Source: a virus. From it: a stretch of 40,597 bases of DNA. The notes beneath the pieces are model-generated. The model was not told the origin of the DNA and did no database searches. It saw only the letters and a program-made list of their open reading frames with translations. The translations under genes were made by a program, and so were the position numbers. Where the stretch lies: positions 1-40,597 of the IMG/VR virus record IMGVR_UViG_3300046001_006267; one strand, 5' to 3'. How positions within the stretch are numbered: the first letter of the stretch is position 1; each line of letters starts with the position of its first letter. This document shows, one piece after another, positions 1 to 38,793 of the stretch.

Positions 1-1393
1 AAAGGATGGTGCGCGCAGTGTCGAACACCACAGGGATGAGCTGGTTGACCAGCCGGCCCGCCTCGTTGATCGCGGCCTTCAGGTTGTCTTGATAGATGTA
101 GCTCGCCACGTCGCCTTCGCGCTGGCGGGCCATGATGGCTTTGCCGCTGGTCTCGTTGCTCCGGGCTCCGAGGCTGGCGTCGTGAAGGCCCGTAACGTCC
201 TTCATGTCCTGCGAGTTGAGCGCGGCTTCCTGCAGCACAGCGGTCGGGATGGGCGGCGGAGCTATACGATCAGGCGCCGCACCCTGGCCGGACCACTTCA
301 GCAGCGGATCTCCTGACTTGGCGGAATTGCGGAAGTCGTCTTCGGCGTCCTCCGGCACAGCCTGATGAGAGGCCAGCCATTGAGCGCGGGGCGCCATCGC
401 CAGCACTTCAGCCGAGACGGAGCGCCAGTAGTTCTTAAGCCGCTGACTGTCGCGGGCGAACCTCACGAGCCCGAACCGGACCCGCTTATCGTGCACGTTG
501 ACTTCCCAACCCCTAGCCCGAACCAGCGGCAAGCGGCTAATCGGCAGATCGTGCGGACCCGAGAGCACAGCGGTCCCGGTGATCAGGTACATGCAGGCCG
601 ACCGCTTCACGCTCTTGCGCGTGGAGATCGGCTGAACGCCCGGCGGGAGCTTGTCGATCTCGACCACCTGCCCGCCCTCTAGCTGGGCTAGCGTGATCGG
701 GGTCTCCTTCATCAGCCAGTATTCAGTGACCCGAACCGTATCGAGCGTGTACCAACCTTGTACATCGTGGGTCGGGATCGTCAGGTCGGACGGCATTTCG
801 TCCTTAAACCGCGCCTCGAACACCTTGCGCGGCATCTCCTCGACCACGAAGCAGTACTGGGCGTCCTTGCCCGTGCGCTCGGTCGAGAGCGGGTCCCAGA
901 CCACGGCGAAAGGGTTGGGAACCGAGTCAATGGTGATGTCGCGTTCGAACCCGTCGTCCGCCGCGTACTTCAGCCCAACGCGCATGTTGGCGATACCGCA
1001 CGCCACCTGGGTCTGGCCGGTCTCCGCGTAAACGCCTTGGGCGTCGTTGTCGCGCTCGATGGAGCGGATCAGCCCCTCACGGATCGAGGCCAGGTCCTTG
1101 TCGGCGTCCTCGGCCGGGCGAACACGAATGGCCGGGCGGTTGATGCGGATGTCGCCCGCAACCTGGGCCACGAACTGCGGAAGCGTGTTGATCGTCAGGC
1201 ACGGCCGACCCTTGCGAGCCAGCAGCGCCTCGGGCTCCCATTGCTCTCCGGCGAAGAACTTGAGGTCGTCAATCCCGGCCTCGCGGTTCTCGCGGTCGAA
1301 GTCCAGCGCCTCCTGGAAACGCTCGCGCGCCTCCTTCAGGAACTCGTCTTCGTCCTTGTAGCCGTCTGGATACTTGGGGCGCTTGCTTGCCAT
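1..1393 (-). CDS. Portal protein, N-terminal part (P22 gp1-like), split by window end
   Basis: This is the N-terminal two thirds of the portal, the dodecameric ring at the capsid vertex through which DNA is packaged and ejected. The ATG at 1393 begins MASKRPKYPDGYKDEDEF and the frame stays open to the window edge. Joined across the terminal overlap to the C-terminal part at 39717-40597, the protein is 714 aa, close to P22 gp1 (725 aa). A segment reading FFAGEQWEPEALLARKGRP is typical of P22-type portals in alphaproteobacterial podophages. The start codon shares one base with the stop of the upstream HNH gene (TGATG), so translation is probably coupled. Family assignment is from motif and context, not from a search. 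Confidence 0.9.
   Translation of the reverse strand, partial: MASKRPKYPDGYKDEDEFLKEARERFQEALDFDRENREAGIDDLKFFAGEQWEPEALLARKGRPCLTINTLPQFVAQVAGDIRINRPAIRVRPAEDADKDLASIREGLIRSIERDNDAQGVYAETGQTQVACGIANMRVGLKYAADDGFERDITIDSVPNPFAVVWDPLSTERTGKDAQYCFVVEEMPRKVFEARFKDEMPSDLTIPTHDVQGWYTLDTVRVTEYWLMKETPITLAQLEGGQVVEIDKLPPGVQPISTRKSVKRSACMYLITGTAVLSGPHDLPISRLPLVRARGWEVNVHDKRVRFGLVRFARDSQRLKNYWRSVSAEVLAMAPRAQWLASHQAVPEDAEDDFRNSAKSGDPLLKWSGQGAAPDRIAPPPIPTAVLQEAALNSQDMKDVTGLHDASLGARSNETSGKAIMARQREGDVASYIYQDNLKAAINEAGRLVNQLIPVVFDTARTIL
4..129. repeat. Terminal direct repeat, left copy (circular assembly overlap)
   Basis: These 126 bases are identical to the last 126 bases of the window. The portal frame is open through both copies and the two portal fragments join in frame across them. 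This shows a circular or circularly permuted molecule opened at an arbitrary point, not a biological terminal repeat. The first three bases of the window (aaa) do not match the other end and are probably an edge artefact. Confidence 0.95.
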
Positions 1394-1860
1394 CAGGAAG
1401 CCCTAAGCTGAGCGCGGACGTACCCCACATACGACCGGGTGCATCCGAACCTCTCCGCAACCTGAGCGGCGGGGATGGGCTTGGCCGCCCACTGTCGCAA
1501 CTCTTGGCGCTGCGCCTTGCTGAACCTTGACCCTGTGACCGTCACGCCATGTCGGATGGCGTCGATGCGGTTAGACTTGGCGTCGCCCCAATAGAGATTG
1601 GCGGCGCGGTCGTCTGTGTGGTCGCCGTTGATGTGGCAAGCCATAGACTGAGGGGTGGCCGGCGGGCCGTGAAAGGCGATGGCGACTAGGCGGTAAATAT
1701 TGCGGTAGGTCTTCCGGCAGTGAACGCTAAACGTGAACCGCGCCCTGCCAGTCCGATCGGGCGGACAGCGCAGAATCCGGCCGTCATCGGCTCGACGCAG
1801 TTGTCCCATTGAAGACACCTCGTAAGCCGGAAATTCCGAGACTGTGCGCCACTCGGTCAT
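1393..1860 (-). CDS. HNH endonuclease with NUMOD4-like N-terminus
   Basis: This 155-aa protein starts WRTVSEFPAYEVSSMGQLRR, a NUMOD4-like segment found in homing-type nucleases. An HNH_3-like core follows (ACHINGDHTDDRAANLYWG, about residues 77-95), then a C-terminal helix-turn-helix-like region (AAQVAERFGCTRSYVGYV). It probably makes site-specific DNA breaks. It lies between TerL and portal with an ATGA overlap upstream and a one-base overlap downstream, and so has no promoter of its own. HNH proteins beside terminases help packaging in some phages, but this one looks more like a homing endonuclease fixed within the operon. Confidence 0.85.
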   Translation of the reverse strand: MTEWRTVSEFPAYEVSSMGQLRRADDGRILRCPPDRTGRARFTFSVHCRKTYRNIYRLVAIAFHGPPATPQSMACHINGDHTDDRAANLYWGDAKSNRIDAIRHGVTVTGSRFSKAQRQELRQWAAKPIPAAQVAERFGCTRSYVGYVRAQLRAS

Positions 1861-3140
1861 TGGCCCATCCAGGAATTAGCGCCGACGTGCTGGCGCTCGC
1901 GTTTGGCCTCGCGCTTCTGGCGGGGCTCCTCGTAGGCGACGCACATCAGGCCAAAGGCGTCCGCGCCGTGGCTCGCCCAGTCATGCTCAGGACCAAGGCC
2001 GATGTTGCGGGCCTCGTCCTTTTTCTCGTGGTAGGCGCCCAAGGCATCGACGCCCGGCCCCGTCGTGTCCTCGTTGAACCAGATGCGCGGGAACAGACGG
2101 CGAGCCGCCTCGACCCGCTGCATGGCCGCGCCCTTGCCCTGGTTCTTGACCACCTCGACCGAGAAGCCCGCCTCGCGGACGTGATCCTCGAAGCGAACGG
2201 CGGTTAGGTGGTTGGCCTGTTGCCCATCGTGGGGCAGGACACAGAGCGCGTTGCCGTATCCCTTGCTTCTCAGCCATGACAGGTGAGTGCCGAGCGGCTG
2301 GCCCGACGCTTCGTAGTAGTCCAGCACCCGGATTTCGCGCCCGACGAACTGAGCGACCCAGATGGCCGTCGCGTCCCTGGTGCCGATGTCCCAGAACGCC
2401 CGGTACTGCATCAGCGGATCAGCGGCGACGTGGCCAATCCGCTTGTCCTTGCGGGCCTGCGAAAGCTGGCTGGCGAAATAGGCGCCGTCGAAGACCTTCA
2501 CGTAATCGCCTTCCCATACGTGATCGTACTGGTCTGGGCGGTCGCGCTCGTCGTCGCTGCGCTCAACCTCCAGCTCATCGGGGAACCACGGATTGTCGGA
2601 CCAGTTGGCGCGGACCACGATGGCTCCGGTCGGAGGGCTCGATCCCCTCAACAGCGCATCAACCGCGTCGGTCTTTCTCCGTGGGTTCCAGGAGAACCAA
2701 AGCTCCGAGCCGGGCTTGCGGATCGTCGGGCGCAGCAGCGTGAGGCTGTGCTGGCTTAGGGACTGCGCCTCCTCGACCCAGGCCACGTCGAACGCCTCGA
2801 ACGACTTGACCGTCTCGGCCGTGTGATCCTGCATCCCCTGGAAAGCGATAACCCCGCCGCCGGGCGTGTTGATCTCCGTCTTCAGGCTCTCGAACTGCGT
2901 GGCCAGGCCAAGCGCCTCGATCTTGTCCTCGATCAGCTTTTTGACCGACTGCTTAAGCGAGAGCTGCACTTCCCGAACGCAAAGGATGCGCGTGCCGGGG
3001 TCCATGATGCAGCGCTCAACCGCCATCTCGGCGAAAAAGTGCGACTTGCCCGACCCCCGCCCGCCGAACGCGCCCTTGTAGCGGCTGGGCTCCAATAGCT
3101 GGGCGAAGACCCTAGGCGTCTCGATGTCCAGGATCGACAA
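1857..3140 (-). CDS. Terminase large subunit (TerL)
   Basis: TerL is the ATP-driven DNA packaging motor and headful nuclease. At 427 aa it has a normal length for the Terminase_3 (PBSX-like) family. Visible motifs are Walker A GGRGSGKS (26-33), Walker B VAWVEEAQ (119-126), the WFSWNP coupling segment (148-153), and nuclease-domain acidic positions in WDIGTRDATAIW (D251), LPHDGQQ (D305) and HGADAFGLM near residue 394. It overlaps the TerS-like gene by 29 bases and the downstream HNH gene by ATGA. Its partner portal is P22-like, which fits headful packaging and a permuted genome. Confidence 0.96.
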   Translation of the reverse strand: MSILDIETPRVFAQLLEPSRYKGAFGGRGSGKSHFFAEMAVERCIMDPGTRILCVREVQLSLKQSVKKLIEDKIEALGLATQFESLKTEINTPGGGVIAFQGMQDHTAETVKSFEAFDVAWVEEAQSLSQHSLTLLRPTIRKPGSELWFSWNPRRKTDAVDALLRGSSPPTGAIVVRANWSDNPWFPDELEVERSDDERDRPDQYDHVWEGDYVKVFDGAYFASQLSQARKDKRIGHVAADPLMQYRAFWDIGTRDATAIWVAQFVGREIRVLDYYEASGQPLGTHLSWLRSKGYGNALCVLPHDGQQANHLTAVRFEDHVREAGFSVEVVKNQGKGAAMQRVEAARRLFPRIWFNEDTTGPGVDALGAYHEKKDEARNIGLGPEHDWASHGADAFGLMCVAYEEPRQKREAKRERQHVGANSWMGQ

Positions 3141-3402
3141 TGGTGCGCCTGACTTCGGTGATCGCGGCCTTCACGTTGGCGTCGATGTCCATGGTCTGCG
3201 TGGGCTTGCCGTGGGCGCGGTCCAGGATGGAGTTGGCCGCCGCTACCTTGGCCGCGTCGCTCTCGCTGGTCGTCGCCACAGTGACCAGCACCTGAAGGGC
3301 CTGGGCGCTGTACTCTTGAGCGGCCTCGCGAATGGAAGCCGTCACCTTGTTTACCGCGCCTTGTGGCCGACCGGAGCCTTCGCGCTTTCCGCCTCGGGCC
3401 AT
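3112..3402 (-). CDS. Terminase small subunit candidate (TerS)
   Basis: This 96-aa protein opens with MARGGKREGSGRPQGAVNK, a basic glycine-rich start seen in many small phage terminases. A mainly helical body follows (TASIREAAQEYSAQALQVL). TerS recognises the packaging start site and regulates TerL. Position immediately before TerL, with overlapping reading frames, is the strongest support. No unambiguous fold motif is visible, so the call rests on position and the N-terminal signature. Confidence 0.8.
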   Translation of the reverse strand: MARGGKREGSGRPQGAVNKVTASIREAAQEYSAQALQVLVTVATTSESDAAKVAAANSILDRAHGKPTQTMDIDANVKAAITEVRRTIVDPGHRDA

Positions 3403-4154: not shown

Positions 4155-4529
4155 CTAGGCGGCCTTTTTAGCCGCCAGCTTCTTGTCGAGGTCGGCGCGA
4201 ACTCTGCGCTCGGTCGTCGCCATCTGCTTGACGAGCCCGGCGCGTTCCATTGCCGATATGGGGCGCTTCATGCAAAGCGCGTAGTCGTAGATCAGGGCCT
4301 CATGCCGGGTCTGCACCAAGCTCGCGGCGCCGTAGCCGCTGGCGTTGATGCTCTCGCGTTGGCCGCCGATGCGAAAGCCCCTCGGAGCGCCCAGCAGCCA
4401 AGCCGCGTCAGCCACGGCTGCGAAGCCGGGGTCTGTCTCGCGATCCTCGCAGAGAAACCCAGTATGGTAGACGATACGCTCGCCAGCGGTGGCGGCGGAC
4501 ACGGCGGTCAGGAACGCGGTCGGCGTCAT
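4155..4529 (-). CDS. Hypothetical protein, first gene after the late promoter
   Basis: This 124-aa protein begins MTPTAFLTAVSAATAGERIV and ends in a lysine-rich helix (VRADLDKKLAAKKAA). It is the first gene downstream of the 4.61-4.70 kb promoter-terminator pair. A GLCMKRPI-like central segment (YDYALCMKRPISAMERAG) and alternating helices suggest a small soluble helical protein. No family is recognised. The lysine-rich tail might bind DNA. Confidence 0.7.
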   Translation of the reverse strand: MTPTAFLTAVSAATAGERIVYHTGFLCEDRETDPGFAAVADAAWLLGAPRGFRIGGQRESINASGYGAASLVQTRHEALIYDYALCMKRPISAMERAGLVKQMATTERRVRADLDKKLAAKKAA

Positions 4530-4611: not shown

Positions 4612-4642
4612 AAACGCCCCGGCCGGTGGGCTCAGGGCGTTT
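4612..4642 (-). terminator. Rho-independent terminator just after the late promoter (tR'-like)
   Basis: On the minus strand an 8-bp perfect stem (AAACGCCC pairing with GGGCGTTT) encloses a 15-base loop and is followed by a T-rich tract (TTTCCTTTTC). It starts roughly 30 bases after the predicted start site of the promoter at 4677-4704. It also follows the stop of the 196-aa gene at 4713, so it would block both read-through early and new late transcripts unless antitermination occurs. Confidence 0.75.
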
Positions 4643-4676
4643 ATGCTTTGACACGCAAATCGCGCATCTAGGCCTA

Positions 4677-4704
4677 ATGATACGTTATCGGGGCCGGGCG
4701 TCAA
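4677..4704 (-). promoter_or_regulatory. Candidate late promoter (pR'-like)
   Basis: The minus strand shows TTGACG (4704-4699), a 16-base spacer and TATCAT (4682-4677). This is the best sigma70-type promoter I found in the window. It lies within ten bases of the end of the 196-aa Q-position gene and directly in front of a terminator. This promoter-terminator geometry matches lambda pR'-tR'. Confidence 0.7.
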
Positions 4705-4712
4705 GCCCCCTT

Positions 4713-5303
4713 TTACGCCGCCTTTCTCGGTTGCCTGTCCATGTCCCCATAGGCCGCGTCAACAAGCCCGCACAGCCCAACGATGGCCTTGGCCTGGGCC
4801 TTGTGGCCGATCCAGCCGAACCGGGCCATGACAGCGCGCCAATTGTTCACCGGCTTGCCCTCGACCACGGACGGGGCGCACAGGCCTTGCAGCTCGCGGG
4901 CTCGGGCGCCCAATGCCGCGTACAAGGCCCGCACCCGCCGGCCAGCGTCCAGGGAGCGCGCCGTAACGCCCTCGACATGGCCCCGCGACCCATCAACCAC
5001 CACGTCGGAGCGACCGCCCTCCACGCGGAACTGAGCGGCCAGGTCTTCCTCGAAACGGCGGATCGAGGAAAAGGCGCTTTCCGTGATCGAGCCCCGGCTG
5101 AACAGCAGCGCGGCCCAATCGTAACGCTGCGCCCTGCCCTCCCGCTTCCGGTCTGTGTCGGTTACGCCCACGTTGCCGTTCTCGACCAGCATCAGGGCCT
5201 CGCGGTTGATTCCCCACTTTTCGGGGTCCTTGCGTTCCTCCCAGCGGCGACGGGCAATCTCGGCCGGGTCTGTGGGTCTATTGATCTTCTGCTTCTTAGC
5301 CAT
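4713..5303 (-). CDS. Q-position late regulator candidate (196 aa)
   Basis: No domain is recognised with certainty. The protein starts MAKKQKINRPTDPAEIARRR, has a helical middle (FSRGSITESAFSSIRRFEED) and ends with NNWRAVMARFGWIGHKAQAK and a short basic tail. It is the last gene of the early operon, directly before a strong promoter and an adjacent terminator, exactly where lambdoid phages encode the antiterminator Q. I infer that it controls late transcription, by antitermination or activation. The FGW..HKAQAKA segment could be a DNA-binding helix pair. A structural or replication accessory role cannot be excluded. Confidence 0.6.
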   Translation of the reverse strand: MAKKQKINRPTDPAEIARRRWEERKDPEKWGINREALMLVENGNVGVTDTDRKREGRAQRYDWAALLFSRGSITESAFSSIRRFEEDLAAQFRVEGGRSDVVVDGSRGHVEGVTARSLDAGRRVRALYAALGARARELQGLCAPSVVEGKPVNNWRAVMARFGWIGHKAQAKAIVGLCGLVDAAYGDMDRQPRKAA

Positions 5304-9205: not shown

Positions 9206-9564
9206 GCGGCCCCCAATGGCGTGATCGTGACGCGGACGATTGGAGCCGGGACGGGATCGGGCGAGCCCCACCGGACCAAGCTGGCTTGACAGTCGGCGTC
9301 GTCGCGAATGACGCCCGCTTCCTGCAAAGCATCCCCAAGGCTCTTAGGGATGTTCTCTATGTCTCTGCGGCGACGGTCTGGTCGGTCAACCACGTACTCG
9401 ATGGTATAGGGTCCGGCGATTGACTGGCCGCGCGCGGTAAGCCGAACGGTCATTTCCGCCTCACGCCGCCAAGCCCTGTACTTAGACGACATGATGCGCC
9501 GTCCGTTCACAACGGTTGTGTTGTGGTTGCTTGTCGGGGGATAGGGCATGTTGAGCACGATCAC
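9202..9564 (-). CDS. rusA: RusA-like Holliday junction resolvase
   Basis: This 120-aa protein cuts branched DNA formed in replication and packaging. A GTG at 9564 is chosen because it overlaps the gcrA stop as GTGA, and a TTG at 9585 is less likely. RusA features are visible: the N-terminal strand VIVLNMPYPPTSNHN, the acidic motif DRRRRDIENIPKSLGDAL with the conserved aspartates, and IRDDADC. Length matches E. coli RusA (120 aa). It resides in the nin-like region, where lambdoid phages also carry resolvases. Confidence 0.93.
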   Translation of the reverse strand: MIVLNMPYPPTSNHNTTVVNGRRIMSSKYRAWRREAEMTVRLTARGQSIAGPYTIEYVVDRPDRRRRDIENIPKSLGDALQEAGVIRDDADCQASLVRWGSPDPVPAPIVRVTITPLGAA

Positions 9565-10160
9565 GCGGCCAGGCCTTTTTCCCAATTCGCCGACGCTTCG
9601 GTCTCCTGTTTCTTCAGGATGAACTCTGCGAGATTATTCTGGTTGTCTCTGAACAGCTTATCGCTTCCGCCGATGTAGGCGGCGCGGGCGTGGTCGCGGC
9701 AGTAAGAGCCGCGCGCCTTGCTGTGGCCGCAGTAGGCGAAGCCGCCCGGAACATCGTACGGCCAGCGGCAATGGCTGGGGCGCAAATCCAGGATGCCGAT
9801 CATGTGCGGCACCACCCTGCACGCCAATTTCTCGCGCAGCGTCTCCGGCTGAATGAGAGCCTTGATCGCCCGCACACCCAACGCCCGCTCGCGCTTCTCG
9901 ACCGTTGCGCGCGTTGGCTTGGCCAGGTGGGCGCGGTCATGCTTGCGCTTGATCTCGTACCGCTCGCGATGGGTGAGGCCGTCGTTGCGGATGTGGGCGA
10001 GGGTGGCGGGGTCGCGCCGGGAAAGACCCATGCGGTGCATGCGCCCTATCACCGCGTTCCGGGTGACGCCGCCGAGCGCCTTGGCCACCTCGGCGGCGGT
10101 CTTGCCGCCCTGCCACAACTTGACCGCAAGCTCGGTTCGTTCGTCGGTCCAGGTGCTCAC
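9561..10160 (-). CDS. gcrA: GcrA-family cell cycle regulator homologue
   Basis: GcrA is an alphaproteobacterial transcription factor that binds sigma70 and acts at promoters methylated by CcrM at GANTC. The N-terminus WTDERTELAVKLWQGGKTAA and the following VTRNAVIGRMHRMGL match the GcrA DNA-binding domain. The C-terminal half has CRWPYDVPG and YCGHSKARGSYCRDHARAAY, resembling the cysteine-containing C-terminal domain of cellular GcrA. The GTG at 10160 overlaps the preceding stop (GTGA). At 199 aa it is somewhat longer than host GcrA (about 173 aa), through a charged linker. It may redirect host transcription or tie phage expression to the methylation cycle. Confidence 0.88.
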   Translation of the reverse strand: MSTWTDERTELAVKLWQGGKTAAEVAKALGGVTRNAVIGRMHRMGLSRRDPATLAHIRNDGLTHRERYEIKRKHDRAHLAKPTRATVEKRERALGVRAIKALIQPETLREKLACRVVPHMIGILDLRPSHCRWPYDVPGGFAYCGHSKARGSYCRDHARAAYIGGSDKLFRDNQNNLAEFILKKQETEASANWEKGLAA

Positions 10161-10348
10161 GCCCGCCCCCTCAATAGCTGGTGGACGCGGGAGTTGAGCG
10201 CCTTCCAAGAGGGCTCAGACTTGGCGTGATCGGCCCTGTCCTTGCGGTAGCGGTCGCGAAGTTCAGACCATACCGGGTCCAGGTTCAGCGAGCTCTCCGG
10301 CTCCGGCCACTGGCGGAACGGCTGGAAAATCTTGAGCAGCCCCATCAT
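10157..10348 (-). CDS. Small hypothetical protein, 63 aa
   Basis: This protein begins MMGLLKIFQPFRQWPEPESS and ends HQLLRGRA. It contains an amphipathic N-terminus and a basic helical middle (DRYRKDRADHAKSEPSW). It overlaps gcrA by GTGA and so is translated with it. No domain is recognised. It could modulate GcrA, but that is only positional inference. Confidence 0.65.
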   Translation of the reverse strand: MMGLLKIFQPFRQWPEPESSLNLDPVWSELRDRYRKDRADHAKSEPSWKALNSRVHQLLRGRA

Positions 10349-37491: not shown

Positions 37492-38793
37492 TTAGGCGGT
37501 GCCGCTGATGCGGGAGCCACGGCGCGGATCGACCATCTTCGTCCCGTACACCACGTCGAAGCGGTGGAGGTGGGTGTCGTTGGTCCCGTCCGAGGTCCGC
37601 CAGTAGCGGACAGTCAGGCCGGTTTCCGGGTCGGTGGCGTAGTCCGCCTCACCCGAGTACGGCATGACCAGCTTGGCCGACACGAGGGCGATGGCCTCCG
37701 GGCGGAAGATGGTGCCGTAGCGGTAGGTGGTCAGGTCGGTGTCGGTTTCGGTGTCCGACCCCATCCACTGGATGGCCGCGTCATCGTCGGGAGCGGTCGA
37801 AGACGTGCCGCCGCAGGCGACAGTCTGGAACGCGCCCGAGCTGATGATCGGGGGGCTGATGGTCAGCGACAGGTTCTGATCGCCGGCCGTGGCGGTAGCG
37901 ACCGAAGTGCCCCCGGTGATAACCGTGAACTGCTGCAGGTAGGGCAGCCGAGCCTTGGTAAGCGGGTTGATCGCGAACACGTTGGCGATGGTGAACACCT
38001 CGCCCGCCGTGACGGTCTTGGCGTTGCCCACCGTGTCGATGGTGAGCGTCTGGGTCCAGTTGCCGTCCTTAACCGAAGCGTAGGTGACGTTCTGGTTGGC
38101 GCCGTCGATCAGGGCGTTGCCGTCGCGCGAGCCGGTCGTGACCGTTCCCGCGTTCTGGGTCGAGTACCAGTCGATATTGCCCATCATCGGAAGCTTGGCG
38201 CGGGTCAGCGCGTCGGTGGCTTCCTTGGTCTGGGCGGTCAGGGCCGAGATCGAGCCGAGCATGGCCCACGCATCGGCCGGGTGCAGGAGGCCGATACGAC
38301 CGTCCGACTCGACGCCGATCTCGTCCAGGCGTTGCGGACCCAGGGTCAGGTCCGAATAGGAGTTGATCGTCTGGCCGGGGGTGCCGACCCAGTTGTAGAA
38401 CTTGCGGGTTTCGGCGTGGAGATCCTGGTCGATCTGGTTGGCCAGGGCCGACGCCTTCGCCTGCATGATCTTGGACTGAAGCAGGGAATCGACGGTCAGG
38501 GTCTCTTCGAGCGAGGTGAACTCGACGTCCACGCCCTTTTGCTTGTCGATGGTGACGGCGATTTCGCCCTCGACCACGTCTTGCACGGAGGCGACGGCGC
38601 CATCGCGAACGGTGAACTGCGGGACGCGCTTGATGTAGACGGTCGAGCCGTTGCGCTGGCCACCCTTAGAGATCGGGTTGACCACAATGTCCTTATACTC
38701 GGAGGACACCAGCTTCGGAAGAACGACGCTGTTCTTCATCAGCTTGAGGAAGGTGTTAGCGTACACCTTCGGAGACAGGAGGGCGTTAGCCAT
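37492..38793 (-). CDS. Major coat protein (P22 gp5-like)
   Basis: This 433-aa protein is nearly the length of P22 gp5 (430 aa) and has the family start: MANALLSPKVYANTFLKLMK, followed by VVLPKLVSSEYKDIVVNPIS. It should adopt the HK97 fold with an inserted immunoglobulin-like domain, probably in the middle third. It assembles around the scaffold encoded just upstream. The 78-base leader forms two GC-rich hairpins, and AAGGA precedes the ATG. A terminator follows. Confidence 0.94.
   Translation of the reverse strand: MANALLSPKVYANTFLKLMKNSVVLPKLVSSEYKDIVVNPISKGGQRNGSTVYIKRVPQFTVRDGAVASVQDVVEGEIAVTIDKQKGVDVEFTSLEETLTVDSLLQSKIMQAKASALANQIDQDLHAETRKFYNWVGTPGQTINSYSDLTLGPQRLDEIGVESDGRIGLLHPADAWAMLGSISALTAQTKEATDALTRAKLPMMGNIDWYSTQNAGTVTTGSRDGNALIDGANQNVTYASVKDGNWTQTLTIDTVGNAKTVTAGEVFTIANVFAINPLTKARLPYLQQFTVITGGTSVATATAGDQNLSLTISPPIISSGAFQTVACGGTSSTAPDDDAAIQWMGSDTETDTDLTTYRYGTIFRPEAIALVSAKLVMPYSGEADYATDPETGLTVRYWRTSDGTNDTHLHRFDVVYGTKMVDPRRGSRISGTA

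Follow-up and report, generated by a model that had tools for sequence, protein, structure and literature searches.

A phage protein from the DUF6456/GafZ superfamily, divergent and predicted to act in late antitermination, is encoded before a recurring promoter-hairpin-terminator layout

Introduction

Gene transfer agents (GTAs) evolved from bacterial viruses, and one of their regulators, GafZ, is a known antiterminator (PMC11150451). Work published in 2024 showed that GafZ of Caulobacter crescentus (CCNA_01112) behaves as an antiterminator and that neither its sequence nor its predicted structure resembles Q or AlpA. With GafZ, which is found in association with RNAP, NusA, NusE, and NusG, RNA polymerase can pass the terminators terGTA and rrnB T1 (PMC11150451). 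The promoter of its head-tail cluster drives one long operon with a terminator after the first gene. At that promoter, whose -35 is degenerate, GafZ acts together with GafY and IHF, and its own element is a palindrome between the -10 and the -35 (PMC11150451). GafY, which resembles DnaA domain IV, and GafZ match the two ends of GafA (PMC9632790). DUF6456 is the annotation carried by homologues of GafA, a GTA activator (PMC9638019).

In phages lambda, 21, and P22, the late operon begins with a Q gene, the promoter pR', and the terminator tR' in that order. Other phage systems, such as the HK022 put RNA and the lambda N nut RNA, act through structured nascent RNA; put needs no protein. Here we describe a virus record that is 40,597 bases long and is called the window below. 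It has the same gene-promoter-terminator order before its late genes as the Q phages, and a 196-aa protein homologous to GafZ is encoded there. We predict that this protein is a late antiterminator, functionally like lambda Q, with a probability of roughly 0.75. The GafZ superfamily is thereby seen outside gene transfer agents, in ordinary phages and prophages, where it takes the place that Q has in lambda-like phages.

Gene Order and Signals at the Head of the Late Operon

The portal gene leaves the window at position 1 and resumes in frame from 40,597 (N-terminal 464 aa in 1..1393, the remainder in 40597-39717, minus strand), giving one continuous ORF of 757 aa. The record has no end repeat and, given the portal gene, is probably an essentially complete, circularly permuted genome. 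The late operon, on the minus strand, begins at ~4.67 kb, crosses the record ends, and extends to roughly 24 kb. Located at its beginning, in this order and on the same strand, are the 196-aa gene (4713..5303), the predicted promoter, a hairpin, a terminator, a 124-aa ORF that had no family match in a Pfam scan (4155..4529), a terminase small subunit-like protein (3112..3402; phrog_2538 and phrog_15261), the terminase large subunit (1857..3140; PF04466), the portal protein, a scaffold, and a P22-type coat protein (37492..38793; PF11651, E 1e-30). The initial annotation had also placed terminators within the late operon at 37.46 and 24.69 kb, and a terminator scan located both on the minus strand: the second of the operon directly behind the coat gene (37477-37452), the third at 24706-24689.

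Directly after the 196-aa gene, as the initial annotation had noted, lies a promoter-like TTGACG (4704-4699, minus strand) separated by a 16-nt spacer from TATCAT (4682-4677), with 10 of 12 consensus matches. A scan of 12 kb found three such sites, compared with 1.5 +/- 1.2 in shuffled sequence; the count is at chance level, and the match by itself therefore proves nothing. The promoter becomes convincing only through comparison with relatives, in which a similar motif keeps its position behind the gene. The predicted transcription start is an A at ~4669.

The terminator (4642-4612, minus strand) folds as AAACGCCC...GGGCGTTT, is GC-rich, and resembles tR'. It had been described as a perfect stem with a T tract about 30 bases past the start. 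The position (~27 nt downstream of the predicted start) and the T tract held up, but the tract, TTTCCTTTTC, is real and interrupted, and the stem has 8 perfect pairs plus 2 G-T. In lambda the terminator lies much further from the start, at about 190 nt. Between start and terminator is a hairpin of 7 bp (4668-4650, minus strand; GAUGCGC-GAUUU-GCGUGUC), absent from the initial annotation, with which the late transcript would begin. The 71-nt leader (4670-4600) is predicted to fold into these two hairpins at -31.7 kcal/mol (z = -4.4), and none of 200 shuffles was as stable. The unit had no match in Rfam.

Relatives of the 196-aa Protein and Their Link to DUF6456

Direct scans of the 196-aa protein against Pfam, PHROG, and NCBIfam gave no match. 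Searches with the single protein returned nothing from the sequenced-phage and species-genome collections, and only a 100%-identical copy from the viral collection. Because these searches gave no relatives, the terminase was used as a search anchor, yielding 80 viral loci whose ORFs were then searched. Using phmmer, six relatives plus identical copies were found (E 1e-29 to 4e-5), and an iterated search extended the family to 15 distinct members, the majority immediately upstream of a terminase. A profile (A1) built from 12 phage members matched 38 of 299 genomes in a Caulobacteraceae draw, 84 of 299 in a Sphingopyxis-family draw, and 39 of 297 in an Aquamicrobium-order draw. Chromosomal DUF6456 proteins were among the matches of this phage-built profile. 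The relatives occur in many alphaproteobacterial phages and prophages, near terminases; Bradyrhizobium phage ppBeUSDA76-2 encodes one of them, WAX24407.1.

Several loci depart from this arrangement. In three (L058, L093, and L097) the family member and the terminase are on opposite strands. Six others (L125, L126, L127, L134, L135, and L136) form a Caulobacteraceae group (tree support 96) with no window-like terminase in the fetched stretch, and are possibly remnants or recruited regulators. EBPR podovirus 2 (JF412295.1; L083 4243-5015) has a terminase 61% identical to that of the window, and at the equivalent place it has an annotated terminator and a 238-aa gene that the family profile does not match; perhaps this phage uses a different late switch.

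Three kinds of comparison connect the family to DUF6456. Among profile matches, the phage members at L072 and L048 scored weakly against DUF6456 (PF20057), the relative at L223 exceeded the curated cut-off (30.3 vs 26.3 bits), and all 3 scanned matches from the Sphingopyxis-family draw were DUF6456 proteins, with E of about 2e-38 or better. The window protein itself missed the PF20057 cut-off and gave no match. In profile-profile alignments against chromosomal DUF6456, which left out L072, L048, and the other DUF6456-scoring intermediates, 12 phage sequences reached 66% probability and 24 reached 93%, collinear over the whole domain. The AlphaFold2 model of the 196-aa protein was moderate (mean pLDDT 69). 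In Foldseek searches of viral structures, named DUF6456 phage proteins took the second and fifth ranks (probability 1.00 and 0.97, respectively), while the fold search of the same model against the PDB gave no usable match.

Since the profile matches, profile-profile alignment, and fold matches agree, the 196-aa protein is best placed in the DUF6456/GafZ superfamily as one of its divergent phage members, its homology being detectable through family profiles and a predicted fold and not by the single sequence. The earlier statement that it belongs to no recognised family hence applies to direct Pfam, PHROG, and NCBIfam scans, and not at the profile level. The term GafZ orthologue, however, does not suit it well, because it misses the PF20057 cut-off, none of the scanned genes beside it resembles GafY, and its promoter lacks a palindrome between the -35 and -10. 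Its sequence identity to GafZ is very low. In Caulobacteraceae, 3 of 3 DUF6456 genes checked directly follow a gene for a DnaA-C-type helix-turn-helix protein, which is the gafYZ arrangement; no GafY-like (DnaA domain IV) neighbour of the window gene was found among the ORFs scanned with Pfam.

Kinship to the Q proteins of lambda, 21, and P22 was considered and rejected, as the protein had no Pfam or PHROG relation to them. The structural comparison that had been proposed found no fold match in the PDB either, a test made weaker by the mean pLDDT of 69. "Q-type", as the initial annotation called the system, can therefore stand for a possible mode of action, given the gene-promoter-terminator order before the late genes, but not for kinship.

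Recurrence of the Layout Behind Related Genes

A common unit recurs behind the relatives: TTGAC and, some 17 nt further on, a weak -10, followed by a CTA-like start and GGCGC-NTTG-CGYC, with the terminator about 60 nt after the -35. A loose test that accepted any hairpin behind TTGAC did not reach significance (p = 0.058), and for that reason a more specific promoter-plus-hairpin model was adopted, built from nine sites chosen by eye. In leave-one-out scoring, where each seed site (or near-twin group) was removed before its locus was scored, the top match was the expected site in the window, L031, L008, L034, L162, L180, and L009; the expected site came second at L025 and was missed at L043. 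When the window was left out of training, the best site in its 40.6 kb, counting both strands, was the element at 4.7 kb (28.6 bits, with the next at 21.8). Additionally, the element was found out of sample at the right place in L114, L159, L117 (a relative of L114), L260, L306, and L295. Non-seed matches of at least 20 bits in the expected region numbered 4 against 0.24 expected, but we do not rely on the P value of this count because two of them (L181 and L259) are probably chance matches inside the coding sequence of a related host gene. Another locus, L349, has the triad of TTGACT, the hairpin TGGCGCTTTGCGCCGG, and then GAGGCTGCttcgGCAGCCTTTTGC. Many relatives have no promoter-hairpin element or visible terminator.

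Strict intrinsic terminators were enriched on the sense strand within 1 kb after family genes (22 vs 6.9 expected, P 4e-6), with 6 and no enrichment on the antisense strand. Ordinary operon-end terminators could explain this enrichment, but would not explain a promoter sitting before the terminator. Of 16 loci with such terminators, 6 have an exact TTGAC at 45-75 nt ahead of the stem (the window, L180, L010, L349, L162, and L267, with L162 to be discounted, as its terminator was located via its promoter), compared with 1.9% of random 30-nt windows. Moreover, in the window, L180, L114, and L117 the terminator stem begins 61-62 nt after the -35. In ppBeUSDA76-2 a strong terminator lies 14 nt after the family gene, and a weaker promoter candidate lies inside the gene end.

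Pairing in the 5' hairpin was compared across 11 loci with the arms aligned by hand; MAFFT misplaced them. In this hand alignment, standard pairs form in 66 of 77 cells, compared with a mean of 59.6 when arms were permuted between loci (P about 0.013-0.017). G-U pairs occur in 9 of the 11 loci, and double changes at several positions (e.g., G-C to U-G and G-C to A-U). The pattern modestly favours an RNA structure over a DNA palindrome. The hairpin keeps its pairing through G-U and double changes, and a role in antitermination like that of put and nut would be hypothetical; it could load the protein, steady a promoter-proximal pause, or merely protect the RNA. As an element for loading or pausing, it may be new.

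The window differs here from the C. crescentus system: its -35 is good, and where GafZ has a palindrome between the -10 and -35 the window has none beyond the level of shuffles; it has the 5' hairpin, and its terminator comes ~27 nt downstream of the predicted start, not behind the first gene. Three loci (L115, L116, and L117) have, about 45 nt after the gene, a 14-bp palindrome between -35 and -10, GCCGACGCGTCGGC, in a position like that of the GafZ binding element. Perfect forms are confined to these three, and L115 has a version in which both sides are altered, GCCAACGCGTTGGC. At L354 a single structure, 37 nt behind the gene, apparently combines the hairpin motif with the terminator (AAGGGGCGC...TTGCGCCTTTTT).

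A Predicted Late Switch and Competing Explanations

We propose that the early operon supplies the 196-aa protein and thereby sets the late switch. RNA polymerase would start at ~4669, from the promoter just behind the 196-aa gene, and make a short leader with the 5' hairpin. When the protein is absent, polymerase would halt at the terminator after about 27-60 nt. When present, the protein would join polymerase at the promoter or within the first tens of bases and travel with it past the first terminator, and then past those behind the coat gene and at ~24.7 kb. Read-through would turn on the late operon, including terminase, portal, capsid, and tail genes. Antitermination is the best explanation because the layout recurs among relatives and because experiments support this activity for the remote homologue GafZ. 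Counting against it are the missed PF20057 cut-off, the lack of a GafZ-like palindrome and of a GafY-like neighbour among the scanned genes, the many relatives with no element or visible terminator, the choice of motif seeds by eye, and the fact that operon-end terminators are common anyway. The minimal promoter-hairpin-terminator unit is open to testing in vitro.

The 196-aa protein may instead be a classical late-promoter activator, with the terminator ending early transcription or leaking; this is the main rival reading, which we consider unlikely. Rhodobacter GafA was first described as an activator and recruits polymerase through omega (PMC9638019), and GafZ still raises expression about fourfold when no terminator is present (PMC11150451). 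The weak -10 boxes of many relatives would also suit an activator. However, in several lineages the promoter lies at a fixed distance before a terminator, and an activator alone would therefore give rise to RNA that ends almost as soon as it is begun. In the window, furthermore, the promoter already matches the consensus at 10 of 12 positions.

It is quite improbable that the unit produces a stable ~60-nt small RNA that has a separate role and no relation to the adjoining gene. The leader does fold far better than its shuffles, and lambda pR' also yields a short RNA, but the lack of an Rfam match and the recurrence of the unit directly behind genes of one protein family, upstream of late genes, argue against this. 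Least probable of all are chance matches or a plain operon-end terminator beside a morphogenesis or replication gene, an idea that draws on the chance-level promoter scan and the loose hairpin test but is countered by leave-one-out and out-of-sample recovery, terminator enrichment, and homology to GafZ.

Evolutionary Context

In a tree of 70 sequences, all 25 chromosomal DUF6456 proteins cluster together (ultrafast bootstrap 93), their group joins a phage subgroup (96), and the window protein belongs to another phage group (support 99). The tree suggests capture of GafZ from phages and, being midpoint-rooted and short, does no more than suggest it. The GafZ-like phage family is nevertheless a plausible source of the gene transfer agent regulator. 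Our wider proposal is tentative: it is possible, at rather less than even odds, that an RNA hairpin with which the late transcript begins loads GafZ-like phage antiterminators or pauses their polymerase, as part of a very compact switch (promoter, hairpin, and terminator in ~95 bp), and that the GafZ of GTAs was taken from this phage group. Among Rhodobacter phages, one study detected no GafA homologue at its threshold (PMC8601537), and the literature that we searched held no report of this 196-aa phage family as antiterminators.

The window also encodes a GcrA-type cell-cycle regulator (9561-10208, minus strand; PF07750, E 1e-29), as does Rhizobium phage RHph_Y1_10; the regulator of the window might act on phage promoters too.
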